A stretch of 64,000 nucleotides of DNA. It comes from Cytobacillus oceanisediminis 2691. GTDB taxonomy: Bacteria; Bacillota; Bacilli; Bacillales; Cytobacillaceae. Numbering within the stretch: position 1 is the stretch's first letter; each line of letters starts with the position of its first letter. The notes beneath the pieces are model-generated. The model saw nothing but the letters and a program-made list of their open reading frames with translations. It had not been told where the DNA came from and did no database searches. The stretch is from NCBI RefSeq assembly GCF_007678455.1, contig NZ_VEEP01000007.1, positions 130,541 to 194,540 of the forward strand. The letters are read 5' to 3'. This document shows, one piece after another, positions 1-61,463 of this stretch. A program made the translations under genes and the position numbers.

Positions 1-3
1 TAA

Positions 4-130
4 TGGACATTTCGAAGGCGGAGCAGCGCCAAAATGTCCAAGAAAGAGGATTTAATGGACATTTCGAAGGCGGGGCAGCGCCAAGATGTCCAAAAAGACC
101 TTTCAAGCCAGAGCATCGCCTACAATATAA
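4..130. repeat. Tandem 52-bp repeat, family 1 (two full units and a remnant)
   Basis: Two 37-bp interrupted palindromes lie at 4-40 and 56-92, exactly 52 bp apart. Each has arms TGGACATTT and AAATGTCCA, and inside them a second short stem GGCG/CGCC around a 6-nt loop. A degraded third copy (gagcatcgcc at 111) follows out of phase. The array may continue beyond the left edge of the window. It shares its geometry (37-bp palindrome, 15-bp linker, GACA-N25-TGTC core) with the arrays at 139, 15339 and 55257. It is non-coding: 52 is not a multiple of three. Confidence 0.9.
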
Positions 131-138
131 CAAGATGA

Positions 139-230
139 CGGCCACTTTTGCTGAATGTTTTCTTATTTCTGTCCATCATAGGCTTGATGACGGACACTTT
201 TGCTGTTCGCTTCCTGAATTCTGTCCATCA
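139..230. repeat. Tandem 52-bp repeat, CGGACA type (two units)
   Basis: Two units start at 139 (CGGCCA...TGTCCA, 139-175) and 191 (CGGACA...TGTCCA, 191-227). Both palindromes span 37 bp and they are 52 bp apart. The left arm is followed by CTTTT in both, as in the array at 55257-55397, so these two distant loci carry the same repeat subtype. It abuts family 1 and ends just before the resA-side terminator. Confidence 0.85.
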
Positions 231-235
231 TAAAC

Positions 236-15320: not shown

Positions 15321-15338
15321 TGTGTTTGGATGGTTATT

Positions 15339-16051
15339 TTGACAGGTTTTAAGAGTGGAGGCTCGAAGCTGTCAAGAACCCTTCGTTATTTTGACAGGTT
15401 TTAAGAGTGGAGGCTCGAAGCTGTCAAGAAACCTTCGTTATTTTGACAGGTTTTGAGAGGGGAAGCTAGAAGTTGTCAAGAAAGCGTGTTAATTTTGACA
15501 GGTTTCAAGAGTGGGGGCTCGAAGTTGTCAAGAAAGCGTGTTTATTCTGACAGGTTTCACGAGGGGAGGCTCGAAGCTGTCAAGAAACCATCGTTATTTT
15601 GACAGGTTTTAAGAGGGGAAGCTAGAAGTTGTCAAGAAAGCGTGTTAATTTTGACAGGTTTCAAGAGTGGGGACTCGAAGTTGTCAAGAAAGCGTGTTAA
15701 TTTTGACAGGTTTCACGTGGGGAGGCTCGAAGTTGTCAAGAACCCGTGTTTATTCTGACAGGTTTCAAGAGTGGAGGCTCGAAGCTGTCAAGAACCCTTC
15801 GTTATTTTGACAGGTTTTAAGAGTGGAGGCTCGAAGCTGTCAAGAACCCTTCGTTATTTTGACAGGTTTTGAGAGGGGAAGCTCGAAGTTGTCAAGAAAG
15901 CGTGTTAATTTTGACAGGTTTCACGTGGGGAGGCTCGAAGTTGTCAAGAACCCGTGTTTATTCTGACAGGTTTCAAGAGTGGAGGCTCGAAGCTGTCAAG
16001 AAACCATCGTTATTTTGACAATTTTTAAGAGGGAAGGCACAAAACTGTCAA
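15339..16051. repeat. 14-unit 52-bp tandem array with 37-bp interrupted palindromes
   Basis: Units start (at GACAGG) at 15341, 15393, 15445, 15497, 15549, 15601, 15653, 15705, 15757, 15809, 15861, 15913, 15965 and 16017: fourteen copies with an exact 52-bp period. Each has arms TTGACAG and CTGTCAA (or TTGACA/TGTCAA) spanning 37 bp, an inner GAG/CTC stem with a 6-nt loop, and a 15-bp linker ending in TTATTTT or TTAATTTT. Variant units recur in mixed order, suggesting exchange between copies. There is no spacer diversity, so this is not CRISPR. It lies between the yrk terminator and the protease gene. Confidence 0.95.
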
Positions 16052-16317
16052 GAACCCTGTTGTAATTTGATAGCTTTCGGAGAGAAAAGAAAAGAGTCAT
16101 AATAGAAAAACGATAAGAAGCTCTCTTAGCCAGATTTTTTCTTATATTGTTAATGGATTATTATGGAAGAATAATAATGACTTATATGGTGGATCTGGAA
16201 ATTAAGCCTTTCGGCACATCGGAAAACCTATCAAATAAGCCGTTATCCCTATTTAGAATATACTGAATATTTTATATTATTTAGGAAATAGAAACATTCT
16301 GATAGGGAGTGAGTGAA

Positions 16318-19073: not shown

Positions 19074-19365
19074 CCGCAACAACCTCCAAACTGTTTTGAC
19101 AATCTTATTATTTACCTTTAATTCCCCGGCTATAAACCGCGTACAGGTGTGGAGAAAGGTGTTAATGAGTTAACGGAAGTGTAAAACAAAGAAAAACAGC
19201 GATTCAGTGAGAAAGTCCTTGATTTCATGTCATTATTGGGAAGAAATGAATAAAATAAGTCATTTTTGCGTTCCTTTTCATGTTTACAACCGAAATCCGG
19301 AGGAGTATGATTACAACAGTTTCAGATTTCTGGAACAAAAAACTGAATGAGTTTCATATTTCTAA

Positions 19366-19567
19366 ATCGCTGAATCCGGCAGGAGCGGGGGAACCAATAT
19401 TGTGGATGCGTCCACTTGGGGTGAAGCCTTTTCAAAAGGCAGGGCTATTCTGAGTCCTAATCCGACAGCTAACTTCGCAAGCGTTACAGAAGAGGAAGAT
19501 GAAGCTTGTGTGACGACTATTCAAAAGTCCACAAGGCTGAAATCTTTTAGCCTCCGGGGGCTTTTTT
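19366..19567 (+). ncRNA. ydaO/yuaA (cyclic di-AMP) riboswitch with terminator
   Basis: The highly conserved ydaO elements are present in order: CGCTGAATCCGGCAGGAGCG, GGGGAACCAA, TTGGGGTGAAGCC, AGGGC, TCCGACAGCTAACTTCG and closing AAGCG (core about 19366-19484). AGGCT/AGCCT and AGCC-CC/GG-GGCT hairpins followed by TTTTTT (19533-19567) form the expression platform. The class is a genetic OFF switch for cyclic di-AMP and often precedes K+ uptake genes, as here (ktrBA starts at 19680). Confidence 0.93.
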
Positions 19568-24569: not shown

Positions 24570-24665
24570 TTGGTCGAATTATTTGAAAAAGTGGTCGAAA
24601 TAATCCAAAATGTGGTCGATATATCCGGAAATTTGGTCGAAATAATCTAAAAAGTGTTCGAAAAA
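24570..24665. repeat. Five-unit 21-bp tandem repeat (TGGTCGAAATAATC)
   Basis: GGTCGA or a close variant starts at 24572, 24593, 24614, 24635 and 24656, giving an exact 21-bp period. The unit is close to TGGTCGAAATAATCCAAAAAG. 21 bp is two helical turns. Although 21 is divisible by three, no start codon or ribosome-binding site accompanies it and the stretch carries stops. It lies between the chemoreceptor terminator and the chromate transporter genes. Confidence 0.9.
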
Positions 24666-24865
24666 ATGAAAAAATCGCCAAAATAATGAGTTGCGCAGTA
24701 AATCATTGCATATAAAATGGCGGAAATTATGATAAATGATTCCCGACGGTGATATGATCCCTTTAATTTACATGCAGTTTCCAATATATGAGTCTATAAT
24801 AAAATAAAAGAAATAAGAATTATAGAAAGAGACTGCATAGGGCTAAAAACAGAAGAGAAGGTGAA

Positions 24866-26114: not shown

Positions 26115-26268
26115 TACTTATCAAGAGAGACTGAGGGATTAGGCCCGATGACGTCCGGCAACCTCCTTTATGGAAAGGTGCCACTTCCTACAGAATGGTT
26201 TCATTCTGAAAGATAAGTCGTATAGATATTTACGATGCCTCTTTCTTTGAATGAAAGAGGCTTTTTTT
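26115..26268 (+). ncRNA. SAM-I (S-box) riboswitch with terminator
   Basis: The S-box core is clear: ACTTATCAAGAGAG at P1, CTGAGGGATTAGGCCCGATG, ACGTCCGGCAACC, GGTGCCA and closing AGATAAGT (26115-26219). A terminator, GCCTCTTTC tttgaat GAAAGAGGC with T7, follows at 26237-26268. When S-adenosylmethionine is abundant the terminator forms and the methionine transporter genes downstream are off. Confidence 0.96.
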
Positions 26269-35411: not shown

Positions 35412-35840
35412 TGTAAGAATATAATAGTTGTCACCAATAGAGGTTATTGGAGCCTTGATTTGTAAGAATATAGGAGAACTGGGTCACCAATAGAGCGTAT
35501 TGAGGCCTTGATTTGTAAGAATATAGGAGAATCGTGTCACCAATAGAGCGTATTGGGACCTTGATTTGTAAGAATATAGGAGAATCGTGTCACCAATAGA
35601 GCGTATTGGGGCCTTGATTTGTAAGAATATAGGAGAATTGTGTCACCAATAGAGCGTGTTGGGACCTTGATTTGTAAGAATATAGGAGAACCGTGACACC
35701 AATAGGGTGTATTGGGACTTTGATTTGTAAGAATATAGGAGAATCTTGTCACCAATAGGGCGTATTGGAGCTGTGATTTGTAAGAATATAGTAGGGTCGT
35801 GGCATCAATACAGCTTATAGGAACCCTAATTTTTAAAGAG
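35412..35840. repeat. 53-bp tandem array, CCAATA/TATTGG hairpin type (eight units)
   Basis: TAAGAATATA starts at 35414, 35463, 35516, 35569, 35622, 35675, 35728 and 35781: one 49-bp step, then six exact 53-bp steps, with a decayed ninth unit. Each unit holds a compact hairpin CCAATA gagcg TATTGG and the text TTGATTTGTAAGAATATAGGAGAATCGTG. It lies between the cstB terminator and the response-regulator gene. A spurious minus-strand reading frame crosses it. Confidence 0.93.
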
Positions 35841-41689: not shown

Positions 41690-41936
41690 AAGGATCCTCC
41701 TGCCATTCGCCTGTAATAAAGCTTCTTCCTTTTATTCTAGCAACTGAACTTTACATAGAGATTGCTGGGATATTACATTGTGAAAACAATGCGCTAATCA
41801 AAGTTGGCGCCTGAAAGGGTTGTCTATCTTTCATGCGATCACAAAGTTATAGGAAATTAGACTCATCTTTGTAATTAATTGGCGAATTTTGTTGAAAGTA
41901 TGGTTCTAAAGTTTTATATTTTAAGTAGAACTGAAA

Positions 41937-42110
41937 AAGGCAAACTTATCGAAAGGTGAGGACGCAAAGCCACGAGTCTAAGGCCATGCTGCTAGGATAG
42001 TCGGGTTGCCAATAAAAGATCGGATGAGTATAGAACATATCGGTGAATGGTATTGGTTGACTGTTTGCCAAAGGAAATCCGCCGTCTTTTTTGGAGGGTT
42101 TTTTTTATTC
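41937..42110 (+). ncRNA. Cyclic di-GMP-I (GEMM-I) riboswitch with downstream terminator
   Basis: The aptamer (about 41937-42010) shows the GEMM-I sequence: AAAGGCAAACTTATCGAAAG, GGTGAGGACGCAAAGCCAC, GAGTCTAAGG and closing TCGGGTTGCC. About 65 bp later AATCCGCC and GGAGGGTT form a stem with T8 (42078-42110), a likely terminator platform. The first gene downstream is the small orphan at 42288. The class binds the bacterial second messenger c-di-GMP. Confidence 0.92.
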
Positions 42111-55150: not shown

Positions 55151-55256
55151 TAGAAGATTTACAGGAACAAGCAGGTCAGAGATGGCCTGCTTTTCTATTT
55201 ATTAGAGGGATTCCTGAAGTTAATTGATGTGTGATTGTTTGATAGAGGTTTTGTAA

Positions 55257-55400
55257 GGGGCACTTTTTGGGAAAAGCGTCGTGAGTTTGTCAGATAGAGG
55301 TCTTTTAACGGACACTTTTCGGGGAGATTATCATGAATTTGTCCGATAGGGCTCTTGTAGCGGACACTTTTTCAGGAAATAATCATGGGTTTGTCCAAAA
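55257..55400. repeat. 52-bp tandem repeat, CGGACA type (three units)
   Basis: Units with left arms at about 55257 (degenerate), 55309 and 55361 repeat every 52 bp. CGGACA...TGTCCG (55309-55345) and CGGACA...TGTCCA (55361-55397) span 37 bp, with a 15-bp linker between them. The left arm is followed by CTTTT, as in the copies at 139-227. The array lies between the converging azoR and katA genes. Confidence 0.88.
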
Positions 55401-59060: not shown

Positions 59061-59078
59061 TTCTTGAAGGAGAATGAT

Positions 59079-59865
59079 ACCCTTATACAAGCGAAACTGT
59101 CCACATAAGGGTACCACTCAAGCGGAAAAACACCCTTATGCAGGCGAAACTGTCCACATAAGGGCACCATTCAAGCGGAAAGACACCCTTATGAGGGCAA
59201 AACTGTCCACATAAGGGCACCATTCAAGCGGAAAGACACCCTTATGCAAGTGAAACTGTCCACATAAGGGCACCATTCAAGCCAATAGACCCCCTTATGC
59301 AGTCGAAACTGTCCACATAAGGGCACCATTCAAGCGGAAAGACACCCTTATGCAGGTGAAACTGTCCACATAAGGGCACCAATCAAGCGGAAAGACACCC
59401 TTATGCAGGTGAAACTGTCCACATAAGGGCACCATTCAAGCCAAAAGACACCCTTATGCAGGCAAAACCATCCACATAAGGGTACCATTCAAGCCGAAAG
59501 ACACCCTTATGCAGGCAAAACCATCCACATAAGGGTACCATTCAAGCCGAAAGACACCCTTATGCAGGCGAAACTGTCCACATTAGGGTACCACTCAAGC
59601 GGAAAAACACCCTAATGCAGTCGAAACTGTCCACATAAGGACACCATTCAAGCCAAAAGACACCCTTATACAGGCGAAACTGTCCACATAAGGACACCAT
59701 TCAAGCCAAAAGACACCCTTATACAGGAGAAACTGTCCACATAAGGGCACCATTCAAGCGGAAAGACACCCTTATACAAGCAAAACCATCCACATAAGGG
59801 TACCATTCTAGCCGAAACACCCTTATGAAGACCAAACTATCCACATAAGGGTATCATTCAAGCTT
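59079..59865. repeat. 53-bp tandem array, CATAAGGG/CCCTTATG type (15 repeats)
   Basis: ACCCTTAT (or one variant) starts at 59079, 59132, 59185, 59238, 59291, 59344, 59397, 59450, 59503, 59556, 59609, 59662, 59715, 59768 and 59819: thirteen exact 53-bp steps, then one of 51 bp. CATAAGGG-N21-CCCTTATG spans 37 bp and the linker is 16 bp. At 59581-59617 both arms change together (CATTAGGG and CCCTAATG), keeping the pairing. It fills the gap between the converging NERD and carboxypeptidase genes. Confidence 0.95.
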
Positions 59866-59868
59866 CAG

Positions 59869-61371
59869 TCATTGTCTTGAAAGTATTCTAACGATTTGAT
59901 CCTCAACATTCCTGCCATCCCTGTCATCCAGCAGGTTATTCAGCATTATCGTAAAAATTAGTGTCTCGCCGCCGGGCTTTTCCACATATCCTGCGAGGGT
60001 GCTTACTCCAGTCAGCGAGCCTGTTTTGGCCTGAACGGTAACGAACTTCGCCTCTTCTTTCAGTCTGTTTCGCATCGTCCCGCCAACCATCCTATCCTTT
60101 GCTCCGGCCACGGGAAGGGAATTCTTGAAAACAGGAAACCATTCCTCTCCTTGCACTTCATAAAGAATTTTTGTGATCTCATTTGCCGGAACGAGGTTCG
60201 CATGGGATAGACCAGAGCCATCACGGAGGATGATTTTACTTGTATCGACACCGATACTCTCCAACTCATCCATCATTCCCTCAAAACCCTTGTCCCAGCT
60301 GCCGTCACCGTGGACGGCTTTGCCTATTTCTTTCACTAGTACTTCTGCATGGCCATTATTGCTGAGCTTCATGAATGGAATCATCAGGTCAGCAAGGGGA
60401 ATGGATTTATGAAAAATTAATACCGGCATGGCATCTGCAGCCTTGCCATTTTTTATTTTCCCAACAATCTCGATGCCCTGGTCTTCCAGGGCTTTCTTAA
60501 AAAGGGTTCCGGCATATTGCGCTGGATTCCAGACGGCGACCCATTCCCTTACCAGTTGTGAATCCGCAGGAATCGACCCTTTCACGACAATAGCATTTGT
60601 GCCATGCTCCCGTTTGATTTGGATATCTTGCTTTCCTTTAGGTTCGATTGTTTTAGTTTCATTAACGACTGTGACGAAATCTGTATCCGGCTCAAGCGAA
60701 ATCTTGGCTGCTTTGCCTTTTTTGCCGGGGGAAATGGAGACTATTACTGTTCCGGCATCATAGTCCAGATTCGGTGATGCTGTCAGTGCCGATATTTGCG
60801 CTCCATAATATTGATGCTCATCATTCCAGGATAGGTCCTCTGAATACCTGACATCATCATACCAGCTGTCATCGGTGATAATATCACCATCAATCTTGGA
60901 GATTCCTTTCTTCTTCAATTTTTTTGCTATTTCAGCAAAATCAGCTGGAAGGAGTGTTGGATCTCCTTTGCCTTTTAAATAAAGATCTCCTGATAGAGTG
61001 CCGCCTGCTATTTTACCAGTCGTCAAAACTTCGGTTGTAAAACGATAATCTTCCCCTAAAACTGACAGTGATGCGGCGGCAGTGAACATCTTCAGTATAG
61101 AAGCCGGCTGCATTCGAATCTCTCCGTTATGCTCATACAGCAGCTTTCCGTGATCTGCTGACCTGATGCTGATACCCGCCAGCGCACCATCAAGAATCGG
61201 TTCGTTTTCAATGAATTCATTGATTTCCTCTGACAGATCAACACTGGTTGAAACAGCCTGTGCAGGAGGTTCATCCGTATAGAAAAGCGGAATGATGGCT
61301 AAAATGCTAATAAACATGAACAGGACGATGAATGTAGTTTTTTGTTTCAATTTTTCGTTCATTCCCTTCAT
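59869..61371 (-). CDS. D-alanyl-D-alanine carboxypeptidase/endopeptidase (PBP4/DacB family)
   Basis: This protein of about 500 aa is a peptidase S13 penicillin-binding protein with an N-terminal membrane anchor or signal (FIVLFMFISILAIIPLF). The three active-site motifs are clear: SxxK in PASILKMFTAAAS, SxN in KLSNNGHAEVL and KTG in VQAKTGSLTGVS. The long insertion between the first two motifs is typical of the class. It trims or cuts peptidoglycan peptide cross-links outside the cell. Start is uncertain: ATG 61371 or 61362, neither with a strong ribosome-binding site. Confidence 0.9.
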   Translation of the reverse strand: MKGMNEKLKQKTTFIVLFMFISILAIIPLFYTDEPPAQAVSTSVDLSEEINEFIENEPILDGALAGISIRSADHGKLLYEHNGEIRMQPASILKMFTAAASLSVLGEDYRFTTEVLTTGKIAGGTLSGDLYLKGKGDPTLLPADFAEIAKKLKKKGISKIDGDIITDDSWYDDVRYSEDLSWNDEHQYYGAQISALTASPNLDYDAGTVIVSISPGKKGKAAKISLEPDTDFVTVVNETKTIEPKGKQDIQIKREHGTNAIVVKGSIPADSQLVREWVAVWNPAQYAGTLFKKALEDQGIEIVGKIKNGKAADAMPVLIFHKSIPLADLMIPFMKLSNNGHAEVLVKEIGKAVHGDGSWDKGFEGMMDELESIGVDTSKIILRDGSGLSHANLVPANEITKILYEVQGEEWFPVFKNSLPVAGAKDRMVGGTMRNRLKEEAKFVTVQAKTGSLTGVSTLAGYVEKPGGETLIFTIMLNNLLDDRDGRNVEDQIVRILSRQ

Positions 61372-61463
61372 AACTCTTCTGTTTTCGACAGGAATTTTCC
61401 CAATAAACAACTAGTAGAGTCTATGATAATGTTTATATTAATAGAAGGTTGAGGAGGAAAAAT

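Follow-up and report, generated by a model that had tools for sequence, protein, structure and literature searches.

Tandem arrays with a period of 52 or 53 bp, which recur in the 64,000-nucleotide stretch of Cytobacillus oceanisediminis 2691 analysed here (the window), are likely to be the cognate DNA targets of NERD (nuclease-related) proteins and would serve as phased binding platforms for them. On the basis of sequence comparison, a probability of nearly four in five was assigned to this reading. The evidence lies in the pairing of NERD genes with neighbouring arrays, in their shared presence or absence at one site, and in the helical phasing and dyad symmetry of the repeat units.

Arrays of the window

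Four 52-bp and two 53-bp arrays were detected by TRF in the 64 kb (Table 1). A preliminary description of this DNA had proposed that the arrays at 4, 139, 15339, 55257 and 59079 share one ruler, and this was upheld, with a span of 37 bp and a period of 52 bp in four arrays and 53 bp in the array at 59072. A position scan of the window also recovered GACA-N25-TGTC in the four arrays said to carry it (at 6, 58 and 193; at 15341 and then every 52 bp to 16017, giving 14 units; and at 55311 and 55363). In these four arrays NNGACA-N25-TGTCNN spans 37 bp, as does CATAAG-N25-CTTATG, counted by hand, in the array at 59072. The apical short stems described for the arrays at 4 and 15339 are visible there but do not extend to the wider set, as unit positions 9-15 had no pairing excess over 44 arrays (z -2.2 to 0.2).

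Table 1. Positions of the arrays and of the NERD-A gene in the window
Feature	Position	Strand	Remarks
52-bp array, AATGGACA class	1..98	.	dispersed; cut by window start; TRF and GACA-N25-TGTC positions
52-bp array, ATGACGGACA class, about 2 units	134..232 (TRF 134-232)	.	dispersed; TRF and box positions
52-bp array, TTGACA-N25-TGTCAA class, 14 units (TRF 13.9 copies)	15333..16054	.	dispersed
21-bp (2-turn) array, TGGTCG class, 5.6 copies	24571..24687	.	TRF
53-bp array, CCAATA/TATTGG class, 6.8 copies	35429..35791	.	dispersed; TRF; absent from the list in the preliminary description
52-bp array, CGGACA/TGTCCGATA class, about 3 units	55241..55396	.	dispersed; TRF, two overlapping rows
NERD-A gene, 309 aa	58131..59060	+	directly upstream of the array at 59072; NERD domain, zinc ribbon, winged-helix-like C-terminus
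53-bp array, CATAAG-N25-CTTATG class, 15 copies	59072..59863	.	NERD-linked; TRF and hand count

The dispersed arrays of the window were compared with arrays that adjoin NERD genes elsewhere. The array at 1..98 had a similarity of 0.75 to the array beside NERD gene L311, and that at 15333..16054 a similarity of 0.79 to the array beside the same-species NERD gene L310. The array at 134..232 matched none of the five resident NERD-linked arrays (best 0.46); its half-site is, by eye, the same as in the array next to L327, a NERD gene from another species. Judged likewise by eye, the array at 35429..35791, in which the helical (10.4-bp) harmonic ranks first, falls in the class of the arrays beside NERD genes L316 and L321 and beside a broken NERD gene (G075 block C), the array at 55241..55396 in that of the arrays beside L317 and L323 of other species, and the 21-bp array at 24571..24687 shares its motif with arrays that precede NERD-B genes, L313 among them.

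Three riboswitches scored above the Rfam 15 gathering threshold in the window, for c-di-AMP (19358-19499), SAM (26115-26219) and c-di-GMP-I (41929-42013), and none lay inside any array. One window protein had 93-97% identity to Mesobacillus counterparts and 98% to a record labelled Chryseobacterium sp. ISL-80; this title, and that of Pseudomonas sp. ISL-84, stand over records with Mesobacillus-like loci (L131, L149) that are probably misnamed. A long 9-bp repeat of about 117 copies, GGTCCTGTT, was also seen at C11:148569-149916, where it is perhaps collagen-like coding sequence.

Genome-wide occurrence and constancy of length

The presence of fixed-ruler arrays was confirmed, and they recur throughout the genome. 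Across 450 kb of it, GACA-Nk-TGTC with k=25 had 85 matches in contig C11 (200 kb) and 75 in C455 (250 kb), the contig that holds the window, and k=77, the 52-bp echo of k=25, had 73 and 64, while every other k from 0 to 79 gave 0-12 matches. The two-unit GACA lattice was found in 138 of 193 genomes of the family and in 17 of 25 genera, with 557 matches in the genome under study; the reversed control had no match in the 193 genomes. Of 398 genomes sampled from the class, 8 carried the lattice, 3 of them of the same genus, and the control matched once, in one genome.

A broad spread of periods, which the preliminary description had named as evidence against its ruler, was not seen: in a sample of 1.25 Mb, taken from two genomes of the species (the C11 and G075 blocks may overlap), intergenic periods clustered at 20-21 and 52-53 bp. 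The counts were 12 arrays of 20 bp, 10 of 21, one each of 22, 24 and 37, 3 of 40-42, 31 of 52, 2 of 53 and one of 72. Sixteen further rows of 52/53 bp overlapped by more than half with longest-ORF picks, so that 33 of 49 rows of this size were mostly outside such picks. After array masking no array overlapped a called gene, a result which the masking itself forces; the gene calls were made by our own ORF scoring.

The unit length was held constant. In 492 of 495 cases the next exact unit lay 52 bp further on, a count conditioned on exact boxes, and adjacent units differed at a mean of 8.24 of 52 positions, N25 included. Gap openings per mismatch amounted to 0.059 for arrays of the GACA type and 0.041 for the other 52/53-bp arrays, about half of the 0.113 of control intergenic DNA (coding DNA, 0.013), and to 0.169 in two-turn arrays. 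Eighteen gap pairs compensated each other within 3-29 bp, and many of the 49 other gaps came from consensus units of 50-51 bp. GACA persisted beyond the right array edge in 21 of 58 cases, the edges being biased by the array-chaining procedure. The array sequence differs between families within one genome; the fixed geometry with free sequence that was originally noted is borne out. Among six loci with solitary arrays, no common neighbour gene was apparent by eye.

NERD-A genes and their downstream arrays

The NERD-A protein of the window scored 53.7 bits against the Pfam NERD domain (PF08378; cut-off 22.1), and six further NERD-A and NERD-B proteins scored 51-70 bits. An array with a period of 53 bp (or 106/159) followed the orthologous gene in 13 of 15 loci, the other two being cut short. 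More generally, 86 distinct NERD loci had 150 bp or more of sequence after the stop codon, and at every one of them an array started between -20 and 250 bp after that codon, against a background of 34 in 1045 genes; two other loci had too little flank, five duplicates were removed, and loci of one family are not independent draws. These loci include the best match of 26 class-sample genomes outside the genus (one duplicate dropped), from families f1, f2, f7, f8, f14, f15, f18, f25, f42, f51 and f54; the class-sample loci are the 30 best of 115 matching genomes, with the best 5 candidates scored in each.

The period of the array follows the NERD subfamily, and the array class differs between paralogs. 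In 74 close relatives the NERD-linked period was 52 bp in 66 cases, 51 in four, 53 in three and 104 in one. At distant loci it was 41 bp in f51 (three loci), 41, 42, 51, 62, 62 and 63 bp in f25, and 21, 103 and 103 bp in f18. NERD-linked periods lay near multiples of 10.4 bp (R 0.98, and 0.96 when periods of 50-54 bp were excluded). In G080, a genome without the GACA lattice, NERD genes were followed by 52-bp arrays of another sequence.

When NERD-B, fragments and weak matches are included, 9-12 NERD matches were found in 19 of 21 genomes of the genus and 5 in G080; there was none in G078, an incomplete genome. In the family, 188 of 193 genomes had NERD-A matches, a count that likewise takes in NERD-B, fragments and weak matches, with at most 12 candidates scored per genome. 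At two NERD loci of other families (L414, L421) arrays flank the gene on both sides, and the L315 NERD gene has an in-frame stop near its end. In draft genomes (for example G076:C65, G082:C41, G084:C38, G087:C24) several NERD genes were located at the start of a contig, a few hundred bases separating the 3' end of the gene from the contig edge, a position that might suggest an assembly interrupted by the array.

The structural model of the window NERD-A protein (pLDDT 93.1) had a nuclease-like part at residues 8-185, matched by 7bdv_A (Can2; Z 8.2, rmsd 5.1, 135 residues aligned) and by 1xmx (Z 8.0, rmsd 3.2, 120 aligned). The winged-helix-like end was matched by 3lmm_B (Z 6.0, rmsd 1.9, 58 aligned) and by the RAP30 DNA-binding domain, 1bby (Z 5.9, rmsd 2.5, 63 aligned). 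These predicted fold matches are of middling Z, and no function follows from them; nor does a fold missing among the matches count as absent. E47, D79, K93 and Q120, which may form a PD-(D/E)XK site, and four cysteines were invariant in 41 sequences.

NERD-B genes and two-turn arrays

In 20 of 21 loci the NERD-B gene (about 325 aa) had an array of 20-21 or 41-42 bp on its upstream side, with 72-163 bp between the end of the array and the estimated start; the exception was L328, where the gene had no array. The loci examined were L312, L313, L329, L330-L347 in part and G072:C1, and one further locus had no NERD-B match. The background was 17 of 1045 genes with an array within 200 bp upstream, at a stricter TRF score. 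This pairing could be autoregulatory. As arrays occur beside both NERD-A and NERD-B genes, both published repeat sizes have a NERD partner here.

Shared presence, dispersed arrays and class specificity

At one site, the NERD gene and its array either both occur or are both missing. At this window NERD locus, both were in view in eleven congeners, and G077 had both by coordinates. Five congeners (G071, G072, G078, G087, G088) had the hydrolase and dac neighbours without the NERD gene and without a 52/53-bp array; a short 20-bp array was present at the orthologous site in G088. In this comparison G070 and G076 were cut by contig ends, and G080 and G086 had no dac match. The dac orthologs (D-Ala-D-Ala carboxypeptidase, window 59869-61410; for example L428-L431, L433-L437) carry in-frame stops in about half of the matching congeners.

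Only 2 of the 49 arrays of 52/53 bp in 1.25 Mb adjoin a NERD-A gene, so that most arrays are dispersed. One of these two genes is broken: split over two frames, it keeps its 52-bp array (G075:C1 3372850-3374588; block C 72850-74588). Twenty-four of 45 dispersed 52-bp arrays reached a similarity of 0.60 to one of the five NERD-linked arrays resident in the species, compared with 1 for foreign arrays, and 21 matched none of the five residents at 0.60. The residents did better than the foreign arrays for 33 of the 45, and foreign arrays were equal or better for 12. Within the genus, the TauE gene was considered as an array partner, as an array follows its ortholog in 15 of 20 loci, the 15333..16054 array of the window included, but it was rejected because array classes elsewhere follow NERD. 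A phage origin was also set aside, with nine viral contigs giving one place each, near chance by our own estimate.

When loci were grouped by eye, the array class was common to orthologs in most groups and differed between paralogs. Over 31 loci, arm distance correlated with protein distance in every protein region tested. The proteins of L317 and L327, which adjoin arrays of different class, had 96.7% identity before the zinc ribbon and 65% beyond it, whereas L317 and L323 share an array class, yet their proteins had 84% identity before and 66% after the zinc ribbon. The NERD C-terminus is therefore put forward as a candidate reader of the half-site, on the strength of the one class-switch pair.

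The arrays might instead be nucleoid-organising or supercoiling sites of a general protein (gyrase, or an HU- or Lrp-like protein), which NERD genes merely adjoin. This would suit the helical AT/GC phasing described below and the intergenic position, and a polymerising protein and a nucleoid role were proposed by Subirana and Messeguer (PMC8161180, in the text available). However, array class and period vary with the paralog and subfamily of the adjoining NERD gene, and gene and array are gained or lost jointly; a general protein would leave this unexplained, and the alternative is considered improbable.

Helical phasing and dyad symmetry

Over 76 arrays, the variable positions alternate in phase between AT-rich and GC-rich, with five cycles per unit (10.4 bp). 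The 10.4-bp harmonic of the mean profile was 4.17, a value that none of 5000 position shuffles reached; no other harmonic as far as the twelfth exceeded 2.09. Phase coherence was 0.92 in the full set of 76 and 0.91 in the 38 arrays that came from other genera. Arrays of other sequence, the 20-21-bp arrays included, had the same AT/GC wave on average, not in each singly: the helical harmonic ranked first in 11 of 33 GACA arrays, 4 of 8 of the GCCC/GGTC type, 5 of 8 other 52/53-bp arrays and 16 of 23 two-turn arrays. The wave is a property of double-stranded DNA.

The units are also symmetric. In 44 arrays the four bases outside GACA/TGTC were complementary far above shuffles (z 4.2 to 8.1), and within N25 the pairing excess was limited to the pair adjoining the boxes (z 3.2). 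With one array taken per arm cluster, 96 of 145 cells paired where 50 were expected, and none of 1000 shuffles reached this value. In 47 NERD-linked arrays, the best 9-bp inverted arms had a mean of 6.98 of 9 pairs compared with 5.51 after shuffling (0 of 200), and a spacer of 25 bp (or its complement, 9) was the best of all spacers scanned; in a 52-bp tandem these two values are indistinguishable, being one dyad pair seen from two sides. This shuffle null comes from the later 9-bp arm scan, the earlier unsupervised dyad scan having had 13 ties in 47 arrays and no null. Array-specific symmetric half-sites would suit a dimeric protein family of differing specificity, and an RNA stem would also be compatible with them.

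It was considered that the arrays are transcribed and act as structured small RNAs, with hairpins between units, as sponges or scaffolds. The idea of structured small RNAs was discussed for such repeats by Subirana and Messeguer (PMC8161180, available text), and the 52-nt repeats of B. coagulans were reported as transcribed in the part of PMC8625621 at hand. A 27-bp TGTC-N19-GACA stem is complementary across arrays, and informative differences slightly favour pairing in the linker (180 vs 150). On the purine-rich strand G.T pairs outnumbered A.C pairs by 253 to 63 (in 42 vs 13 arrays), and RNA would predict a G.T excess; this raw excess, judged from the rows, is largely that of one subfamily. 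With one array per arm cluster the counts were 10 and 7: A.C was as low as 7 in only 1 of 1000 shuffles, but G.T was not enriched, as 917 of 1000 shuffles reached it. The 10.4-bp wave and the quantised periods are features of double-stranded DNA, and the window arrays lack any Rfam match. Small RNAs are thus regarded as an unlikely explanation. The preliminary description had left selection on DNA structure and on RNA structure side by side; phased binding of a dimeric protein now stands as the likely cause, in view of the wave, the inverted half-sites and the constant NERD pairing, while the pair counts do not favour RNA structure.

Relation to known repeats

Repeats of this constant length were reportedly first described in J Bacteriol in 2020. 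In the text available of a later survey (Subirana and Messeguer 2021; PMC8161180), 176 Bacillus genomes contained 1886 repeats with a length of 51-53 nt and 781 with one of 20-21 nt, the latter equal to two helical turns, with constant size and free sequence. Repeats of both sizes were called enigmatic there and had no protein partner; no evidence was seen for a Cas-like protein interacting with the 52-nt repeats, and either an unknown protein polymerising on DNA or small RNAs were proposed (PMC8161180). The preliminary description knew of no such element, a view overtaken by these published 52-nt and 20-21-nt Bacillus repeats. The arrays of this study are of the same kind as those in the portion of PMC8161180 available, with periods of 51-53 or 20-21, free sequence and several families per genome; the published repeats are non-coding. 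A partner gene, the half-site geometry, the composition wave and a subfamily-specific period are not given in that text, in which the words 'NERD', 'nuclease', 'adjacent' and 'downstream' have 0 occurrences. No published link between these repeats and NERD was found in the literature searched, as far as its text was accessible. The repeats are already known; what appears to be new is the partner gene, together with a period specific to the NERD subfamily and the shared gain and loss of gene and array.

REP/RAYT elements are similar in that palindromic repeats are scattered through intergenic DNA and some copies lie next to the gene of a dedicated protein; the REP palindrome bears a GTAG or CGTC tag at one end. 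In contrast to these, the protein here is nuclease-related and not a Y1 transposase, and the repeats form long tandem arrays with fixed helical periods. The resemblance of the dispersed palindromes with a gene-linked copy to REP-RAYT would be explained if a Y1 (RAYT or IS200) transposase had spread them. The distribution of Y1_Tnp does not follow the arrays: it is missing in three genomes with lattice matches (G085 with 543, G088 with 68 and G089 with 544) and present in G080, which has none. RAYT/IS200 was rejected as the spreading machine, and such an origin is judged highly improbable.

Plasmid iterons and tandem-repeat centromeres are helically phased repeats beside the gene of their binding protein; here, several paralogous chromosomal sets are found per genome, with matching arrays far from the gene. 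CRISPR arrays share the regular alternation of a conserved part with a part of fixed length, but the 25-bp parts here are near copies within an array and not unique spacers, a point also made in the available text of PMC8161180. The defence systems Mokosh type I and Nhi-like contain a NERD domain as well (PMC10952713, text available in part), whereas here (PF08378) it is fused to a zinc ribbon and a winged-helix-like end and tied to an array.

Proposed role of the NERD proteins

If the arrays are the targets of NERD proteins, each such protein has an array of its own class next to its gene, and further arrays of that class would be scattered in other intergenic regions. The C-terminal domain would read the half-sites, and dimers would line up along one face of the DNA; the unit length may be held while the sequence drifts because of this alignment. 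With less assurance, the nuclease-like domain might nick or cut array DNA, by which arrays would lengthen and spread. RAYT proteins are thought to lengthen and spread REP elements in a comparable way. The NERD protein is thus a candidate for the repeat-making machinery, and nuclease-driven spread of the arrays is plausible. It is possible, though we would not yet call it probable, that a sequence-specific NERD nuclease is the maker of a helically phased satellite of its own, which it also lengthens and spreads through intergenic regions, with several parallel sets of drifting specificity per genome in many genera of Bacilli.

The array beside every tested NERD locus gives these enigmatic repeats a likely protein partner, which can be tested. 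It also suggests a function for a subfamily of NERD, a domain little studied in bacteria, where its role was unstudied before SmdA according to the available text of PMC9040797. The NERD proteins and their arrays would offer natural pairs of protein and DNA site in which changes in specificity may be followed.
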